DNA of 64,000 bases from contig JASJCQ010000015.1 of assembly GCA_030065915.1 (NCBI GenBank), forward strand, positions 62,001 through 126,000. Direction: 5' to 3'. Within the stretch, counting starts at the first letter, position 1; every line of letters begins with the position of its first letter. Source of the DNA: Woeseiaceae bacterium. Lineage in GTDB: Bacteria > Pseudomonadota > Gammaproteobacteria > Steroidobacterales > Woeseiaceae. The position numbers and the translations under genes were made by a program. Of this stretch, positions 11,119 through 18,181 are shown piece by piece. The notes under the pieces were generated by a model. It was not told the origin of the DNA. It did no database searches and saw only the letters and a list, made by a program, of their open reading frames with translations.

Positions 11119-12795
11119 CTAGTGAAGCCCAAGCTCACGAAGTCGTTCGACGATCGGAGCGGCGCCGCCCAGCGCCAGCATGATGATGAGATCGCTGTCT
11201 TCGGCCCATGCGAGTGCATGATCAAAGGACTCGAGCTCCGTCTCGAAGTGACGGATATCCTCGTCACCGAGGCCCTGTTCGAGCAGCGTCCGTCGAATGA
11301 CGGCGAACACCTCGCCATGCTGCCTGCCCCGATGGTATTTCGGTAGTTCGGAGACGACGACGCGGTCCAGGCCAATGGCAAAGGCATCGCGCGTCATTCG
11401 CTCGATCAGCGGGTCGGGTCGATCTCCGGCCTGGCCAAAACAGAGCACACGCCGCGTGGCAGGTATCGCCCTCGCCATGTCGAACAGCGCGTGCATGGCC
11501 TGCGGATTGTGCGCGAAATCGACGAGGATCTTCTTGCCGTCCAGTTCGTAGAGGTTGCAGCGACCCGGATTGTCATCCTGTTCGACGCTTTTGAGGCCGG
11601 ACGCAATGTCCTCGAGGTCGACGCCGAGATGGAAGGTCAGCGCGGCCGCGGCCAACGCGTTGGCGACATTGTGGCGCGCGGCTCCGCCCATCGCGATCGG
11701 GATCTCGAAGGCCTTGCAGATATCGGTCTGGCTTTCGCTGTCGCGCATACAGAGTACGTCGCCCGACAACACGAATGCCGTTCCGCCCGACGCCAGGCTC
11801 TGCTGAATCCTCTCGTTGTTGGCGTCGAGGCTGAACCAGCTGATACGGCCATCAAAGTCGACGGCCTTCTCGCGAAGCAGGGAGTCATCGGCGTTCAGTA
11901 CCAACGTTCCGTTGTCCGCCACGGCATGGCATACGATCCATTTGATGTCGAGCAGTTCACGCATGTTCGCGGAACCGAAGTCACCCAGGTGGTCTTCGGC
12001 GATGTTGGTGATCGCGGCAGCCGTCGCCTGCTCGACGCCAAGGCCACGGCGCAAGAGCCCGCCACGCGCGGATTCGAGCACGGCCACGTCGACGTCCGGA
12101 TTGCGCAGTACCTGTCTTGCGCCTCCGGGCCCGGACCAGTCATCCCGGTCTATGACGGTCTCGTTGACCGCTATCCAGTCGGTGCAGCTGACGCCGACAC
12201 CTTTGTGCGTCCCGCGCAGGATGTGGCTCGCCACGCGAACGGTGGTCGTTTTGCCATTGGTGCCAGTCACGAGCGCTATCGGCACGTCGTCGTAGCTGTC
12301 CCAGTCGGCCTCTGCGGGCAACTCGCGTACCGGCCATACGGACGAATGACTGCCCATACCCAGCGACACCTCATCGTCATCCCACAGCAGTGTGACACCG
12401 TGTCGCTGCGCCTCGGCTTTCAGGGCTAACAATTCGGGGTTGGCCTCCTCCGCGGCCTCTTTGCCAAGGCGTTCGATCGCCTCGGCAGCATCGGGTACGG
12501 GTTCACCGCCGAGCTCAGCGGCGATGGCATCGAAACTCCATTCGTTGATCTCCGCGGCCGCGTAGAGCTGGTCGATTTCCACGGCGAACGCGAGGCTCAA
12601 GCCGCCGGTAAGCCGGATCCAGTTGAACTCCGGTTCCGCCCAGCCCAGCGCGTCTGTGATTGTCTTTACGTGTTTCTTCCAGACGTCCGGTACGCGGTCG
12701 ACCTCGTCGGCGTCACACTCGATATCGAGTATCGCTGCCGGTACGTCGAACAGCAGGTTGGGCCCCGTCAGTCGTCTCGCATCGAGGAATCGCAT
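11119..12795 (-). CDS. Mur ligase family protein of the cyanophycin operon
   Basis: A 558-residue protein whose C-terminal two thirds resemble the Mur-ligase half of cyanophycin synthetase: P-loop GTNGKTTT (178-185), LESARGGLLRRGLG, ITNIAEDHLGDFG, a MurE-like second domain and ILVDFAHNPQAMHALFDMA. The first ~165 residues are not an ATP-grasp domain; they form an alpha/beta region that I do not recognise, ending in VSLGMGSHSSVWPV. It follows cphA by only 8 bases, so it belongs to the cphB-cphA operon. Proteins of this type should ligate an amino acid or amine to a carboxyl group using ATP. It may work on cyanophycin, its dipeptide, or a primer; this is inference. It is not CphA2, which keeps the ATP-grasp domain. 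Confidence 0.85.
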   Translation of the reverse strand: MRFLDARRLTGPNLLFDVPAAILDIECDADEVDRVPDVWKKHVKTITDALGWAEPEFNWIRLTGGLSLAFAVEIDQLYAAAEINEWSFDAIAAELGGEPVPDAAEAIERLGKEAAEEANPELLALKAEAQRHGVTLLWDDDEVSLGMGSHSSVWPVRELPAEADWDSYDDVPIALVTGTNGKTTTVRVASHILRGTHKGVGVSCTDWIAVNETVIDRDDWSGPGGARQVLRNPDVDVAVLESARGGLLRRGLGVEQATAAAITNIAEDHLGDFGSANMRELLDIKWIVCHAVADNGTLVLNADDSLLREKAVDFDGRISWFSLDANNERIQQSLASGGTAFVLSGDVLCMRDSESQTDICKAFEIPIAMGGAARHNVANALAAAALTFHLGVDLEDIASGLKSVEQDDNPGRCNLYELDGKKILVDFAHNPQAMHALFDMARAIPATRRVLCFGQAGDRPDPLIERMTRDAFAIGLDRVVVSELPKYHRGRQHGEVFAVIRRTLLEQGLGDEDIRHFETELESFDHALAWAEDSDLIIMLALGGAAPIVERLRELGLH

Positions 12796-12803
12796 GGGCC
12801 TGG

Positions 12804-15596
12804 TCAGTCGCCATCCTCTTCGCGGGCAGCTATGCGAACGCCACGCTCGTCGCTGATAATCTCGACGTCGTCAGAGAAGGCGAAATCATCGGTCTCGGGT
12901 AGTTCGATGGATGCCGGCGCGTGCTTCTTGTTCTGCTCGACCTTGCCATCGCTGTTGAAGTAGATGATCTGCTTCCAGGACCGCCGAATGTTGTCACCGA
13001 GAATCAGCACCAGGTCGCCGGCCTCGGCCATCTTGAGCGCATGCTCGGTCGCCTCAGCCTCGTCGGGAATCATCTCGATGATGTCTTCCGGCACGCCGTT
13101 CTTTATGAGCTCCGCCTTCAGCATCTCGGGGACTTCGTCAGGGCCTCGCCCGCGAGGATTATCGTCGCGTCGACAGATGTAGTGATCGAAATGACCGCTC
13201 GCGACCGTCGCGATATCGCGAATGTCCTCGTCGCGGCGATCGCCCGGTGCTGCCAATACGACGATGCGGCGCCCTTCGACCTCGAATCGGTCGACGAGCC
13301 CACACATTGCTTTCACGGCCGCGGGATTGTGTGCGTAGTCGAGGATGACCCTGAATGGGTGTTCGTTGTAGACGTTCATACGGCCCGGCGCCTGGAAGAA
13401 CGTCGAGTCGAACGTGCGCAGTCCGTGCCGTATGTCTTCGAGACCGACATTCATATTGTAGGCGAGTGCGGCAGCGAACATCGCGTTCTGCACATTGTGC
13501 ATGGCACGCCCTTCGATCGTCGCCGGGATCAGGTGCGTCCACAGGAGCGGCGTGTGCGTATCGCCGTCGTAGATTGAAATCATGTGCCCGTTCATGCCCT
13601 GCTCGAGGACGAAGGCCTGCCCGCCGGCGCGGATGTGCTGCTTCACGAGCGCATGACCCGGGTTCATCGTCACGTAGCAGAGCTTCTCGGCTTCGGTGTA
13701 ATCGGCCATCTGCAGGCATAAGGGATCGTCGGCATTCAGTACAGCGGCGTCGGTCGCAATCTCGACCGGGACACGCTTGACCTCCGCGAGCTGTTCGACG
13801 GTGTCAATGCCGCGCAGGCCCAAGTGGTCTGCACTGATGTTCAGGCAGCAGGCTACGTTGCAGGACTGGAAGCCTAAGCCGCTGCGTAGCATTCCGCCGC
13901 GTGCGGTCTCCATGACAGCCGCGTCGACCGACGGGTCGCGAAGGATGATCTGCGAGGATATCGGGCCGGTCATGTCGCCGGAAACGCTGAGCTTGCCATC
14001 GATGTACACGCCGTCGGTCGACGTCAGTCCGACGGTGTAACCGGTCAGCTTCAGGATATGCGCCAGCATGCGAGACGTTGTGGTCTTGCCGTTCGTACCC
14101 GTAATCGCCGCAATAGGGATTCGGCTGGGCGTATCGGGCGGGAACAGCATGTCGACAACGGCTCCGCCAACGTCACGTGGCGTGCCCTCACTCGGTGCGA
14201 CGTGCATGCGGAAGCCAGGTCCCGCGTTCACCTCGCAGATACCGCCGCCGGCATCACGGTAAGATTCGGAGATGTCGTTGGTCAGGAAATCGACACCGCC
14301 GATGTCGAGACCGATCGCGTTGATCGCACGAATGGCCATCTCGCGATTGTCGGGGTGAATCGTGTCCGTGACATCGATCGCCGTGCCGCCGGTTGACAGG
14401 TTGGCCGTTGAGCGAAGGTACACGACTTCGCCGTCGGCGGGGACGGTGTCCTTGTCGTAGTCCAGCTTACCCAGCAAGCGCTCGGCCTGGTGATCGAGCT
14501 CCAGGCGCGTCAGAACTTTCTCATGGCCAACGCCTCGGCGCGGGTCCTGGTTGACGATTTCGACCAACGCTTCGATGCTGTGTTTACCATCGCCGACGAC
14601 ATGTCCCGGGACACGCTTGGCCGCAGCCACGAGTTCGCCGTCGATAACCAGCAGGCGATGGTCCATCCCTTCGAGGTAAGTCTCGACGACGATCGACCGG
14701 CCGTGCTCGCGCGCCTTCTCGAACCCTAACCGGACCTCGTCGGGCGTTTTCAGGTTGATCGCAACACCGCGGCCGTGGTTTCCGGCCAGCGGCTTGATGA
14801 CAACCGGGTAACCGATGCGTTCGGCCGCACGGATCGCCTCCGTGCTGCTCCGGACGATGCGCTGCTTGGGCACCGGCAGGCCGAGGTCGCGCAAGATGCT
14901 GTTGGTCTCTTCCTTGTCGGATGCCAGTTCGACAGCGATATTGCCGGTTCGGCTGGTCGTCGTCGCCTGGATGCGCTGCTGGTAACGCCCGTAGCCAAAC
15001 TGCACGAGGCTGTAGCGATTGAGTCTGATCCAGGGAATGTTGCGCTCGACTGCCGCATCGACGAGCGATTGCGTGCTGGGCCCCAGGGCGCGTCGCTGCG
15101 CATAGCGAATGAACGTGTCTCGCGCCTCCGGAAAGTCCCAGTCCGCCGCCGGTGCATTTTCCGGTTTCAACTCATCGGGTAGCAGGCTGTGAATCAGGTC
15201 GAGCGCGAGTGAGCTGGCCTCACGCCCTACAGCCGCGTCCATGTACTCGAACACCATGTTGTAATGCCCGGGCTGGCCGTCGATAGAACGTGTGCGGCCA
15301 AACGTCACATCGGAGCCTGCGACGTTCTGCAGCTCGATCGCGACGTGCTCCATGAGATGCCCCAGCCAGGTGCCCTCGTCCTCCCGCATACGTCGCACGA
15401 ATCCGCCGGGCGTTTTGTACGAACAGCCGTGCTCGTGCAGCCCCGGCAACATGTCGAGCAGCGGCTCGACAAAGTCCGGGCCCAGTTTGACGGTAGGCCA
15501 CTGCTCGAGCTCGCCTAAGTCAATGACGTGCCGAATGACCGGGAAGTGTGCCCAGACGTTCGGACCAACATAGACGTTGGTGCTTAGAATTTTCAC
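12804..15596 (-). CDS. cphA: Cyanophycin synthetase
   Basis: A 930-residue cytoplasmic enzyme with the full CphA1 layout: an N-terminal domain (about 1-160), an ATP-grasp domain (about 215-485, glycine-rich loop at 271-279 AGNHGRGVA, metal-binding CEVNAGPGFRMH) that adds aspartate, and a Mur-ligase-like domain (about 493-880, P-loop GTNGKTTT at 500-507) that adds arginine to the aspartate side chain. ILDYAHNPAAVKAMCGLVDR near 760 is the usual C-terminal ligase motif. The product is the nitrogen reserve multi-L-arginyl-poly-L-aspartate. The last ~45 residues form an acidic tail beyond the usual end. It sits between cphB (9-base gap) and a second Mur ligase (8-base gap), a three-gene operon for making and mobilising the polymer. 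Confidence 0.96.
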   Translation of the reverse strand: MKILSTNVYVGPNVWAHFPVIRHVIDLGELEQWPTVKLGPDFVEPLLDMLPGLHEHGCSYKTPGGFVRRMREDEGTWLGHLMEHVAIELQNVAGSDVTFGRTRSIDGQPGHYNMVFEYMDAAVGREASSLALDLIHSLLPDELKPENAPAADWDFPEARDTFIRYAQRRALGPSTQSLVDAAVERNIPWIRLNRYSLVQFGYGRYQQRIQATTTSRTGNIAVELASDKEETNSILRDLGLPVPKQRIVRSSTEAIRAAERIGYPVVIKPLAGNHGRGVAINLKTPDEVRLGFEKAREHGRSIVVETYLEGMDHRLLVIDGELVAAAKRVPGHVVGDGKHSIEALVEIVNQDPRRGVGHEKVLTRLELDHQAERLLGKLDYDKDTVPADGEVVYLRSTANLSTGGTAIDVTDTIHPDNREMAIRAINAIGLDIGGVDFLTNDISESYRDAGGGICEVNAGPGFRMHVAPSEGTPRDVGGAVVDMLFPPDTPSRIPIAAITGTNGKTTTSRMLAHILKLTGYTVGLTSTDGVYIDGKLSVSGDMTGPISSQIILRDPSVDAAVMETARGGMLRSGLGFQSCNVACCLNISADHLGLRGIDTVEQLAEVKRVPVEIATDAAVLNADDPLCLQMADYTEAEKLCYVTMNPGHALVKQHIRAGGQAFVLEQGMNGHMISIYDGDTHTPLLWTHLIPATIEGRAMHNVQNAMFAAALAYNMNVGLEDIRHGLRTFDSTFFQAPGRMNVYNEHPFRVILDYAHNPAAVKAMCGLVDRFEVEGRRIVVLAAPGDRRDEDIRDIATVASGHFDHYICRRDDNPRGRGPDEVPEMLKAELIKNGVPEDIIEMIPDEAEATEHALKMAEAGDLVLILGDNIRRSWKQIIYFNSDGKVEQNKKHAPASIELPETDDFAFSDDVEIISDERGVRIAAREEDGD

Positions 15597-15605
15597 TGCT
15601 CTCCC

Positions 15606-16427
15606 CTATTCGGCTCGCGCTTCTCTCGTCGCAATATTAAAACGCCCGCCGCTGATCAGGATGTGCAGCGAGACGTCCAGCAGGCTGACCGGGTCGCCGC
15701 GGCGGGCGCGGTCCATAGAAGAATAACTCAGATGCGTCGGGTCGATCACCGTGATGCCGCCGCTGCCGACGACTTCGAGCTCCTCTTCCGGCGAGATGAA
15801 AGCTGCCGTGTCCTCATCGAGTCCTACACCGACCGCGAACGGGTTGAACGCCAGGGCCGTCAACAGACGCCCGAGACGATCGCGCTGACGAAAATGCTGG
15901 TCGATGATGAGTTTGTTCGTGAGACCCAATCCCGGCGCCATTGTCACCATGTCGGGGCTTGGCGTACTCCCTTCCCGGCCACCGGCGATCATGTGCTCGG
16001 GCATGAAGGCCGCTCCGGCGGACGTGCCCGCGACGTGCATCCCTTCGGCGTTGCGGCGCCGTATGCGCTGCGCGACCTCGGTACCGCCGAGCGTTGTCGA
16101 CAGCCGAAGCTGGTTGCCACCCGTCATGAAGACGCCGTCGGACTTGTCGATGTACTCGAGATCCGCGCTCGACTGGCAGTCCTCGCGTGACTCGAACGCC
16201 AACACCCGCGCATGGGGACAGCCGAGCTTGCGAAACAGCTTCTCGTAGTTGCGGCCTGTGTCCTCGAGCTCTGACGCCGTCGGGATGATGCTGATGCGTG
16301 CACCGGTACCTCCGCAAAGACTGACAAAACGATCGAGAATTTCTGGGTTATGGAGTTTTTCTTCGGCTCCGCCAATCGGGATAATGTAACCACGATTCGC
16401 GTGCTGACTGACCGGGGCCGGACTCAT
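15606..16427 (-). CDS. cphB: Cyanophycinase
   Basis: A serine exopeptidase of family S51 that cuts cyanophycin to beta-Asp-Arg dipeptides. The nucleophile elbow GTSAGAAFM carries the catalytic Ser, IPIGGAEEK is the N-terminal family block, and MTGGNQLRLSTTLGG and IDQHFRQRDRLGRLL are typical. I take ATG at 16427 (MSPAPVSQH), which has AAAGGCG about 9 bases upstream; the longer frame to 16475 would add 16 residues without a ribosome site. At 273 residues it is normal for a cytoplasmic CphB, with no signal peptide. It is the promoter-proximal gene of the cyanophycin operon, so breakdown and synthesis enzymes are made together. Confidence 0.94.
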   Translation of the reverse strand: MSPAPVSQHANRGYIIPIGGAEEKLHNPEILDRFVSLCGGTGARISIIPTASELEDTGRNYEKLFRKLGCPHARVLAFESREDCQSSADLEYIDKSDGVFMTGGNQLRLSTTLGGTEVAQRIRRRNAEGMHVAGTSAGAAFMPEHMIAGGREGSTPSPDMVTMAPGLGLTNKLIIDQHFRQRDRLGRLLTALAFNPFAVGVGLDEDTAAFISPEEELEVVGSGGITVIDPTHLSYSSMDRARRGDPVSLLDVSLHILISGGRFNIATREARAE

Positions 16428-16560
16428 GAATATGTCGCCTTTCTTTCTTGCTGATGCTCTGAAAATCGCGCACATTGTACACGAGCGCGTTGCTGAAACC
16501 GGTGCAAAAGAGCGCGCCGTGACGCCTTGATTTGCATCGTAGAGAGACGTTTCTCAGCCC

Positions 16561-17361
16561 ATGAATATCCCGCTCGGAAAAGACACGACCTATACCAGTC
16601 AATACTCGCCTGACGCGCTGGCTCCGATCTCGCGCGAGACCAGTCGAGAGGGCATGGAGCAGCCCCTGCCGTTCGTCGGCGCTGACATCTGGAACGCATG
16701 GGAGCTGACCTGGCTTAAGGAAAACGGACATCCGGAGATCGCCGCCGCCGTGATCAAGTTCCCCGCATCGTCACCGAACATCATCGAATCGAAGTCATTG
16801 AAGCTGTACCTGGGTTCATTCGCGATGACGCGTATCGGCAGCGCCGAGGCTGTCCGCGAGCGAATAGGGAATGACCTCGGCGAGGCGGCCGGCAGTCCCG
16901 TCGACGTCTCGCTGATGACGGAGAAGGATCATCGCCCGGCGCTGATCGGCAAGTTGCCAGGACTTTGCCTCGATAAACTCGACGTAGAATGCAGCGACGA
17001 CTCGCCGAACGCCAGCTTGCTGAGCTGTGCCGGCGAAACTGTCCGTGAAGAATTGCACTCGCACCTGTTCAGGTCGCTTTGCCCGGTGACCAGCCAGCCG
17101 GACCTGGCCAGTATCTACATCAATTACACCGGGCGCCGGATCGATGAGGAAAGCCTGCTCAGGTATATCGTTTCTTTCCGCGAGCACCAGGATTTCCACG
17201 AGGCCTGCGTCGAGCGGATGTTCGTCGACATCCAGTCAGCCTGTGCGCCGGAGAAACTCTGCGTCTATGCCCGCTTCGCACGCAGGGGCGGCATCGACAT
17301 CAACCCCTGGCGAGCCAGTTACGACGCGCTGATGCCAAACGTCAGACTGTGGCGTCAGTAG
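16561..17361 (+). CDS. queF: NADPH-dependent 7-cyano-7-deazaguanine reductase
   Basis: A 266-residue long-form QueF, the two-lobed T-fold enzyme of gammaproteobacteria. It reduces preQ0 to preQ1 in queuosine biosynthesis. The QueF motif ESKSLKLYL lies at 76-84, catalytic Cys174 in LCPVTSQPD with Asp181, and the substrate-binding FHE at 212-214. Start ATG 16561 gives the expected MNIPLGKDTTYTSQYSPDAL opening. It stands alone, divergent from cphB and ending 1 base before the convergent cyclohydrolase gene. No preQ1 riboswitch-like element is evident in the 133 bases upstream. The other queuosine genes are not in the window. Confidence 0.96.
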   Translation: MNIPLGKDTTYTSQYSPDALAPISRETSREGMEQPLPFVGADIWNAWELTWLKENGHPEIAAAVIKFPASSPNIIESKSLKLYLGSFAMTRIGSAEAVRERIGNDLGEAAGSPVDVSLMTEKDHRPALIGKLPGLCLDKLDVECSDDSPNASLLSCAGETVREELHSHLFRSLCPVTSQPDLASIYINYTGRRIDEESLLRYIVSFREHQDFHEACVERMFVDIQSACAPEKLCVYARFARRGGIDINPWRASYDALMPNVRLWRQ

Positions 17362-17362
17362 C

Positions 17363-18181
17363 TCAAGCAGAGCCGATATCCTCATCGTCCAGTTTGTGCC
17401 CCCAGCCCTGCTTTGCTTTCAGGTAACGACGGTTGCTGTCGGTCACACCAATGACGTGTTTCACCGGCGTCACGTCGGTGAGTCCCTCGGCAGCCAGGTC
17501 GTCGAGCTTCTTCGGATTGTTGGTCATCAGGCGAAACGGTTTCTGACCGTAGAAATAACGGATTAACGCGGCTGCGTCGCTGAAGTCCCGGCAGTCATCC
17601 GGCAATCCGAGGCTGCGATTGGCCTGGTACGTGTTTTCGCCGGAGTCCTGGAGAAGGTAGGTTGCTGCTTTGGCCCACAGGCCGATGCCTCGGCCTTCGT
17701 GCCCCGACATGTAGACGAGCAGTCCGCCCTGCGCGTCGTCGTGAAGCCTCTCGACCGCCGTCGCGAGCTGTGGGCCGCACTCGCAACGCTCCGAGCCGAA
17801 CACGTCGCCGGTCAGGCAGCTCGAATGCACGCGAATCAGCGGGTCGGTCCATTGCTCGGGGTCGCCGATGACAAGGACGCTATTCACCGCCATCGAGGAC
17901 GCAAGGCTTGCGAACGATTCCTGCGCCTTTTCGGCGCGCAGCTTGTCCGCAATCTCCTGTATCGCCCTGAGTTCCGTGTTTCGCACGCAGGCGTACCAGT
18001 CAACCTCGTACCCCCTTCCGTGCAGGCTGAGCGGCAATGGAATCGGCCCGAGAATACTGATCGAACCACCGGGCCCGGCCGGCTCGTCCGCCGCCAGGCG
18101 GCCGCCGTCGCGACCGATCCGAATCAGCTTGCCGGCAGCGCTCAGCCTCTCACGAACGGTTGGATCGATATACGTGAACAT
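17363..18181 (-). CDS. ribA: GTP cyclohydrolase II
   Basis: A 272-residue protein with the GCH II core in its C-terminal two thirds. Zinc ligands are Cys122, Cys133 and Cys135 in SSCLTGDVFGSERCECG; HEGRGIGL and LLQD (with the preceding Tyr), then MTNNPKKLDDL, complete the active site. GCH II opens GTP to the first pyrimidine intermediate of riboflavin synthesis. Two points differ from the housekeeping RibA of about 200 residues: an N-terminal extension of roughly 90 residues, and GHEGRGIGL where RibA usually has RQEGRGIGL. It is not beside other rib genes, so it may be a second, specialised cyclohydrolase II. It converges on queF with one base between the stop codons. Confidence 0.82.
   Translation of the reverse strand: MFTYIDPTVRERLSAAGKLIRIGRDGGRLAADEPAGPGGSISILGPIPLPLSLHGRGYEVDWYACVRNTELRAIQEIADKLRAEKAQESFASLASSMAVNSVLVIGDPEQWTDPLIRVHSSCLTGDVFGSERCECGPQLATAVERLHDDAQGGLLVYMSGHEGRGIGLWAKAATYLLQDSGENTYQANRSLGLPDDCRDFSDAAALIRYFYGQKPFRLMTNNPKKLDDLAAEGLTDVTPVKHVIGVTDSNRRYLKAKQGWGHKLDDEDIGSA

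Follow-up and report, generated by a model that had tools for sequence, protein, structure and literature searches.

Cyanophycin synthetase 1 (CphA1) builds its polymer at two ligase sites, the G domain adding aspartate to the C-terminus of the chain and the M domain adding arginine to the side chain of that aspartate (PMC9262961). In SuCphA1, an N-domain peptidase motif, Cx19HxxEH, gives primer independence, and how the first chains begin is known only in part, the proposals being unprimed initiation at a very slow rate, strands left over in the cell, or other molecules (PMC9262961). CphA2, a CphA derivative that retains one of the two ligase sites, works with its G domain and without the M-domain P-loop and lid (PMC9427784). 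Here we describe a gene whose product shows the reverse arrangement, with the G core gone and the M domain kept. It is the third gene of a cyanophycin operon in a window of 64,000 nucleotides, i.e., the whole stretch of DNA that was analysed (Woeseiaceae bacterium, assembly GCA_030065915.1, contig JASJCQ010000015.1, positions 62,001 to 126,000 of the forward strand). The genes run cphB-cphA-third gene, all on the minus strand, with intergenic gaps of 9 and 8 bases, and are thus as tightly joined as an earlier interpretation made from the letters alone (the sequence-only reading) had described them. Judged from its sequence and predicted structure, the third protein is a CphA from which the ATP-grasp core (~260 residues, roughly CphA 225-485) has been excised; the N fold, a complete Mur site and a short stretch from the start of the G domain are kept. 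We propose, at a probability of roughly 0.35, that it may load the Asp at the C-terminus of the partner CphA and thereby make a primer that CphA extends.

Architecture of the third protein

A Pfam scan of the third protein returned Mur_ligase_M and Mur_ligase_C only, and no ATP-grasp family. Against the cyanophycin synthetase profile TIGR02068, only residues 169-540 aligned (profile positions 477-847), at 356.3 bits and so under the cut-off of 850, and against the MurE profile TIGR01085 the score was 88 bits, under the curated cut-off of 257.3. Since the protein shares 35% identity with the window's CphA over residues 167-540 (E 9.5e-62), the likeness of the two is not due to chance. The motifs GTNGKTTT, ESARGGLLRRGLG and DFAHNP were all found which, together with the TIGR02068 match over the M half, bears out the sequence-only reading in its claim that this protein matches the arginine-adding half of CphA. 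The same reading held that the N-terminus is not ATP-grasp, and this part stood, given the Pfam result and an hhalign probability of 0.3 against the CphA G core. Residues 1-165, to which it had assigned no domain, are of CphA type, a diverged N domain followed by the opening stretch of the G domain. In a single hhalign comparison with wider alignments, the N-terminal part matched CphA 1-230 at a probability of 88.1 (E 3.1e-6), as against 0.4 for the reversed profile and 0.1 for the M domain; each half alone gave 57.6 and 52.6 with the wider alignments, and narrower profiles gave a probability of 5.6 (E 0.0068). An AlphaFold2 model made from 55 aligned members reached a mean pLDDT of 92.7 and a pTM of 0.92, and the top nine rows of a Foldseek search of this model against solved structures were all CphA1. 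When aligned with VIA-align on TeCphA1 (7wae_A), 546/558 residues were matched (Z 38.7, rmsd 3.1), with residues 1-556 lying on 1-877, as compared with a Z of 26.7 for the best non-CphA row and 314-397 aligned residues for the non-CphA rows. The HxxEH peptidase motif was found in the first 200 residues of third proteins in 0/67 rows.

Residues of the Mur active site were examined in two overlapping alignments of third proteins, A1 (55 rows) and A4 (34 rows). K182, T205, E241, D268, H269, K285, H429, R459 and R489 were invariant in both (55/55 and 34/34), and position 183 was Thr or Ser. In TeCphA1, K499, T500, T522 and E558 contact ATP and magnesium (PMC9427784), and the double substitution D585A H586A has been used to kill the M site of SuCphA1 (PMC9262961). 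By our reading of the alignment, these residues would correspond to K182, T183, T205, E241 and D268-H269 of the third protein.

Comparison with the described relatives sets the third protein apart from each of them. With CphA1 (PDB 7wae, 7lgj, 7lg5, 7txv) it shares the N fold, the start of the G domain, the M core and lid and the catalytic Mur residues, and it differs in the loss of the ATP-grasp core and of the N-domain peptidase motif, in an amino-acid pocket that is partly changed, and in a profile score below the family cut-off. It is not a CphA2, since the P-loop lysine K182 is kept throughout A1 and A4 and the G domain is absent. Thirteen other loci carry a second CphA-like gene adjoining cphA (L099, L100, L105, L107-L109, L112, L113, L115, L117, L119, L121 and L122), and these paralogues, which we take to be CphA', match CphA over N and G. 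The GTNGK (M P-loop) and D-x-AHN patterns were absent in 13/13 of them, and only 3/13 showed the G-loop pattern, whereas the third protein has both GTNGK and D-x-AHN and does not belong with CphA'. MurE and other Mur ligases share its Mur middle and C-terminal domains, but its N-terminal part is of the CphA type and its MurE score falls short. Searches of an open-licence PMC library turned up no account of a CphA paralogue lacking the G domain, nor any of the CphA tail described below. The text of PMC3646047 mentions 'cyanophycin ligase-like proteins' and the groups of Fuser and Steinbuchel 2007, among which an earlier listing of the third-protein paralogue is possible, and the main text of PMC10206079, a survey of cphA clusters, uses 'ligase' 0 times.

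The CphA tail and the start of the polymer

The CphA of the window comprises an N domain with C-x21-HxxEH, an ATP-grasp G domain, a Mur-ligase M domain and a C-terminal tail (active-site residues checked), and its AlphaFold2 model had a mean pLDDT of 90.6. Within the tail, residues 881-910 were of low confidence, residues 911-924 formed a beta-hairpin with a DERGVR motif (block pLDDT 76), and residues 925-930 fell below a pLDDT of 50. Across 50 partner CphAs (alignment A3), residues 881-930 were poorly conserved, with a mean frequency of the commonest residue of 0.47 as compared with 0.75-0.80 elsewhere, the exceptions being the DERGVR motif and the extreme end. At that end, the last residue was Asp in 96/96 distinct C-termini of the CphA clade that is paired with the third gene. 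Position -3 was acidic in every one of them (Glu in 91, Asp in 5), and position -1 was A, G, S, E, N or D. Asp was the last residue in 0/36 other CphA-like proteins (the G-less L085, L086 and L135 included) and in 7/95 third proteins. CphAs of the clade were 60-100% identical to one of two clade queries, as against 35-45% for the 36 others. Since the RGV motif lies 11 to 14 residues from the C-terminus, depending on the row (50 rows), it is the tail end itself that is kept. Loci fetched only after the idea of the tail had arisen supplied 21 of the 96 C-termini, and the E-x-x-D end was present in 21/21, many of which are close relatives of one genus and not 21 independent events.

The codons of the last Asp were mixed (GAC 62, GAT 34), and the residue was kept where the intergenic gap was 49-81 bases (L024, L056, L095 and L054). 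In loci whose third-gene start fits the conserved N-terminus, the gap was between -1 and 81 bases; larger ones, up to 127, are late start picks. A Shine-Dalgarno cause of the acidic CphA end was rejected, since Asp is kept at gaps of -1 to 81 bases, in three CphAs without the third gene, and with both codons.

Since only the N and M parts are present, the third protein would be limited to the arginine step on an existing C-terminal Asp. The conserved site points to the second half-reaction of CphA only, i.e., an ATP-dependent isopeptide ligation in which an amino acid, most simply arginine, would be joined to a C-terminal Asp through its beta-carboxylate, and the likeliest target would be the invariant C-terminal Asp of the partner CphA's tail. 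Once arginylated, the tail could act as a protein-linked primer that CphA would lengthen with its own G and M domains, and the CphA N-domain peptidase could cut chains free. Because the target Asp is encoded, an initiating enzyme of this kind would need no G domain. That binding in the M domain needs a C-terminal Asp unmodified by arginine (PMC9427784) also counts in favour of this proposal. With the nature of the N-terminus settled as far as sequence and model allow, initiation rates highest among the candidate functions. The sequence-only reading had left several possibilities side by side (that the protein starts, branches, caps or modifies the polymer, or ligates another amino acid), and the invariant C-terminal Asp of the partner CphA makes a role in starting the polymer the most likely of these. 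Both elements of the proposed mechanism have precedents, in that RimK is an ATP-grasp ligase that extends the C-terminus of ribosomal protein S6 and glycogenin primes a storage polymer from a protein. The CphA G domain matched the RimK family in Pfam and TIGR profile searches; RimK and glycogenin serve here as analogies for the mechanism only, and no homology is claimed for glycogenin.

Distribution and phylogeny

The distribution of the third gene was taken from a reading of match rows in genome samples that overlap in part. In the order sample, 67/196 genomes had a match (E 1e-20), of which 64 had both genes (one gene in a few of them being a fragment or lying on another contig), 3 had the third gene only and 0 had cphA alone. 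The three third-only genomes were two fragmented assemblies (G057 and G181) and G085, which holds a remnant; at its locus (L053), a 237-aa remnant of the third gene was seen and no cphA was found in the 9 kb covered. Matches were found in 18/369 genomes of the class sample (8 with both, 10 with a CphA-like gene only), in 29/398 of the phylum sample (5 with both, 24 with a CphA-like gene only), in 7/289 of the class of G630 (3 with both) and in 2/11 of the order of G1134, both with the gene pair. In the order of G458 (E 1e-40), 23/41 genomes had a match, with both genes in 15, the third gene only in 5 and CphA only in 3. Two of the five third-only genomes had a piece of cphA alongside and in two the gene lay at a contig end; of the three CphA-only genomes, one had no remnant of the third gene, and two retained short pieces of it where cphA ends (46% over 54 residues, E 9e-9; 25% over 67 residues, E 0.003). 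The pairing of the third gene with cphA is non-random, yet the third gene can be lost. A random distribution relative to cphA was the outcome named by the sequence-only reading as fatal to its idea, and the survey speaks against such randomness, although the tie is to one CphA clade and not to cphA generally and the gene has been lost in 3/23 genomes of one order. A whole-family survey with TIGR02068 as a test of presence or absence was dropped, since MurE-like genes match it in 96/96 genomes and 14/14 controls. Matches to the third protein were found in 22 plasmid records, 4 of which cover at least 80% of the query. The two of these four that were inspected, from Ruegeria and Shinella, keep the order cphB-cphA-third gene, and their third gene is annotated 'Mur ligase family protein'. 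The closest relative of the third protein, at 87% identity, came from a Woeseiaceae metagenome-assembled genome.

A maximum-likelihood tree was built from 102 M domains (37 third proteins, 34 partner CphAs, 28 other CphAs and 3 odd ones). Third proteins formed one group (67/100; a single group in 72% of bootstrap trees), as did the partner CphAs (99/98), and identity to the window member was 34-87% for third proteins (A1) versus 63-96% for CphAs (alignment A2). Two further proteins without a G core branched elsewhere, namely one from plasmid 3 of Deinococcus deserti (L085), annotated 'Mur ligase family protein', which grouped with L103 and L104 (100/99), and a Legionella adelaidensis plasmid protein (L086), which grouped with L114 (100/100). 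In both, an N domain and the start of G run straight into M, with the joint at about the same place. Given their separate places in the tree, excision of the ATP-grasp core most likely arose at least three times independently. The Legionella gene lies beside genes for cyanophycinase and isoaspartyl peptidase, and the 15 kb shown carry no gene annotated as cphA. At a further locus (L135, 1381-3360, genome G1005), we observed a 660-aa protein in which the start-of-G motif runs directly into the M domain; on the same contig is the gene of another CphA-like protein, which matches the N-to-G part, and the two may be complementary halves of a split CphA.

Positions of the features discussed are collected in Table 1. 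The cphB open reading frame begins with the ATG at 16475; the start at 16427 in the sequence-only reading would be a further, downstream ATG in frame with it. Next to the operon lie queF (7-cyano-7-deazaguanine reductase; 16561-17361, plus strand) and a GTP cyclohydrolase II-like gene (17363-18181, minus strand).

Table 1. Features of the cyanophycin operon in the window, with two G-less CphA genes of other organisms (last two rows, with the locus named)
Feature	Position	Strand	Basis
cphB, cyanophycinase (S51 peptidase)	15606..16475	-	ATG start; TIGR02069 257 bits vs curated cut-off 126.6; PF03575
cphA, full cyanophycin synthetase 1, 930 aa	12804..15596	-	GTG start; TIGR02068 1142.6 bits vs curated cut-off 850
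Extra C-terminal tail (CphA residues 881-930) peculiar to the clade paired with the third gene	12807..12956	-	model, conservation
Codon of the CphA C-terminal Asp930, invariant in the clade	12807..12809	-	C-terminus counts
Third gene, G-less CphA paralogue, 558 aa	11119..12795	-	ATG start; Pfam, TIGR02068, model, tree
Residues 1-99, diverged CphA N domain without HxxEH	12499..12795	-	hhalign 88.1 vs reversed 0.4
Residues 100-165, remnant of the G-domain start (LLALKAEAQRHGVTLLWDDDEVSLGMG)	12301..12498	-	hhalign; structure alignment spanning 1-556
Residues 166-405, Mur-ligase core with K182, T205, E241, D268-H269, K285	11581..12300	-	PF08245; residue counts
Residues 406-558, Mur-ligase C-terminal (lid) domain, putative pocket partly changed (E483, Y487, L542)	11122..11580	-	PF02875; residue counts
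G-less CphA, Deinococcus deserti plasmid 3, L085 (NC_012528.1 289928-305073)	6002-8206
G-less CphA (N + M, HxxEH kept), Legionella adelaidensis plasmid, L086 (NZ_LR134428.1 47816-62970)	6356-8245

Candidate functions and their implications

Several observations weigh against initiation on the CphA tail. The link between the third protein and the tail is a correlation, and since both are traits of one clade, shared history alone could suffice to explain it. Three CphAs of the clade (G1225, G1210 and G1211) have no third gene and yet end in an intact ExxD, so that either the tail serves some other purpose or the gene was lost recently. C-x21-HxxEH, with 21 residues between C and HxxEH, was kept in 48/48 clade CphAs checked; it is near to Cx19HxxEH, and another source of primer may thus be unneeded. 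No ExxD tail goes with the independent G-less proteins of Deinococcus and Legionella. Finally, the putative arginine pocket of the third protein is partly changed, and its substrate may not be arginine. This pocket is assigned from MurE structures, by which we presume the places of CphA D868 and D811 and of E483 to line the arginine site. The place of D868 (59/63 CphAs) is L or H in 55/55 (A1) and L, H or Q in 34/34 (A4) third proteins, and E483 (55/55 in A1; 32 E and 2 D of 34 in A4) aligns with R, K, Y or C in CphA. Since the D868 place is never acidic in third proteins and a glutamate stands where CphA has these other residues, the enzyme could conceivably have switched specificity, putting a different amino acid (e.g., Lys, ornithine, or a neutral or acidic one) on the Asp side chains or chain ends of cyanophycin and so modifying or capping the polymer. 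We consider this unlikely: the place of D811 (57/63 CphAs), mostly A, E or P in third proteins, is still Glu in 13/55 (A1) and 15/34 (A4), the position after it is acidic in at least 13/55 (A1) and 8/34 (A4), RGR (489-491) and R459 are largely kept, and the pocket is a presumed one, assigned by analogy with MurE.

Alternatively, the third protein could be a helper arginine ligase, its N domain binding cyanophycin and its M domain adding arginine to Asp side chains left bare by CphA or speeding the arginine step in a mixed complex with CphA, with the tail serving as a docking or assembly signal only. This is possible, if doubtful. The retained N fold, the complete Mur site, the association with a cphA clade and the fact that the gene is dispensable in some genomes all agree with it, but CphA's own M site is complete, and a helper would leave unexplained why it is the exact last residue that is Asp in 96/96, instead of an internal docking motif. 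We regard it as improbable that the protein makes primers de novo, joining free Asp and Arg to beta-Asp-Arg (or adding Arg to a short Asp peptide) to give soluble primers for CphA. An N-M enzyme could do so without a G domain, and the Legionella plasmid gene, beside cyanophycinase and isoaspartyl peptidase and with no cphA annotated in the stretch shown, would be in keeping with such a role; however, beta-Asp-Arg by itself falls short of the minimal primer, (beta-Asp-Arg)-Asp (PMC9262961), and the tail would again be left unexplained. Least probable of all is that the paralogue has a mainly structural or regulatory role that requires no catalysis, or that it is a copy in slow decay. Loss or breakage of the third gene in some genomes and a conservation below that of CphA would agree with this, but nine catalytic or substrate-site residues are invariant among members 30-87% identical to the window protein, and both genes are present in 64/67 of the order genomes with a match.

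Should the third protein initiate polymer on the tail, cyanophycin in this lineage may be protein-primed in a manner analogous to glycogenin, CphA carrying its own primer Asp and a dedicated G-less paralogue adding the first arginine. We advance this tentatively and, as part of the same joint reading and with the same reserve, the view that CphA has repeatedly given rise to half-enzymes, with one of its two ligase halves removed or worn away. The analysis offers an explanation for the 'Mur ligase family protein' genes that adjoin cphA in this clade. A conserved terminal Asp, together with a companion enzyme that would be able only to load an Asp side chain, makes the question of how chains start directly testable, and the third protein could offer biotechnologists a new route to start or modify the polymer.

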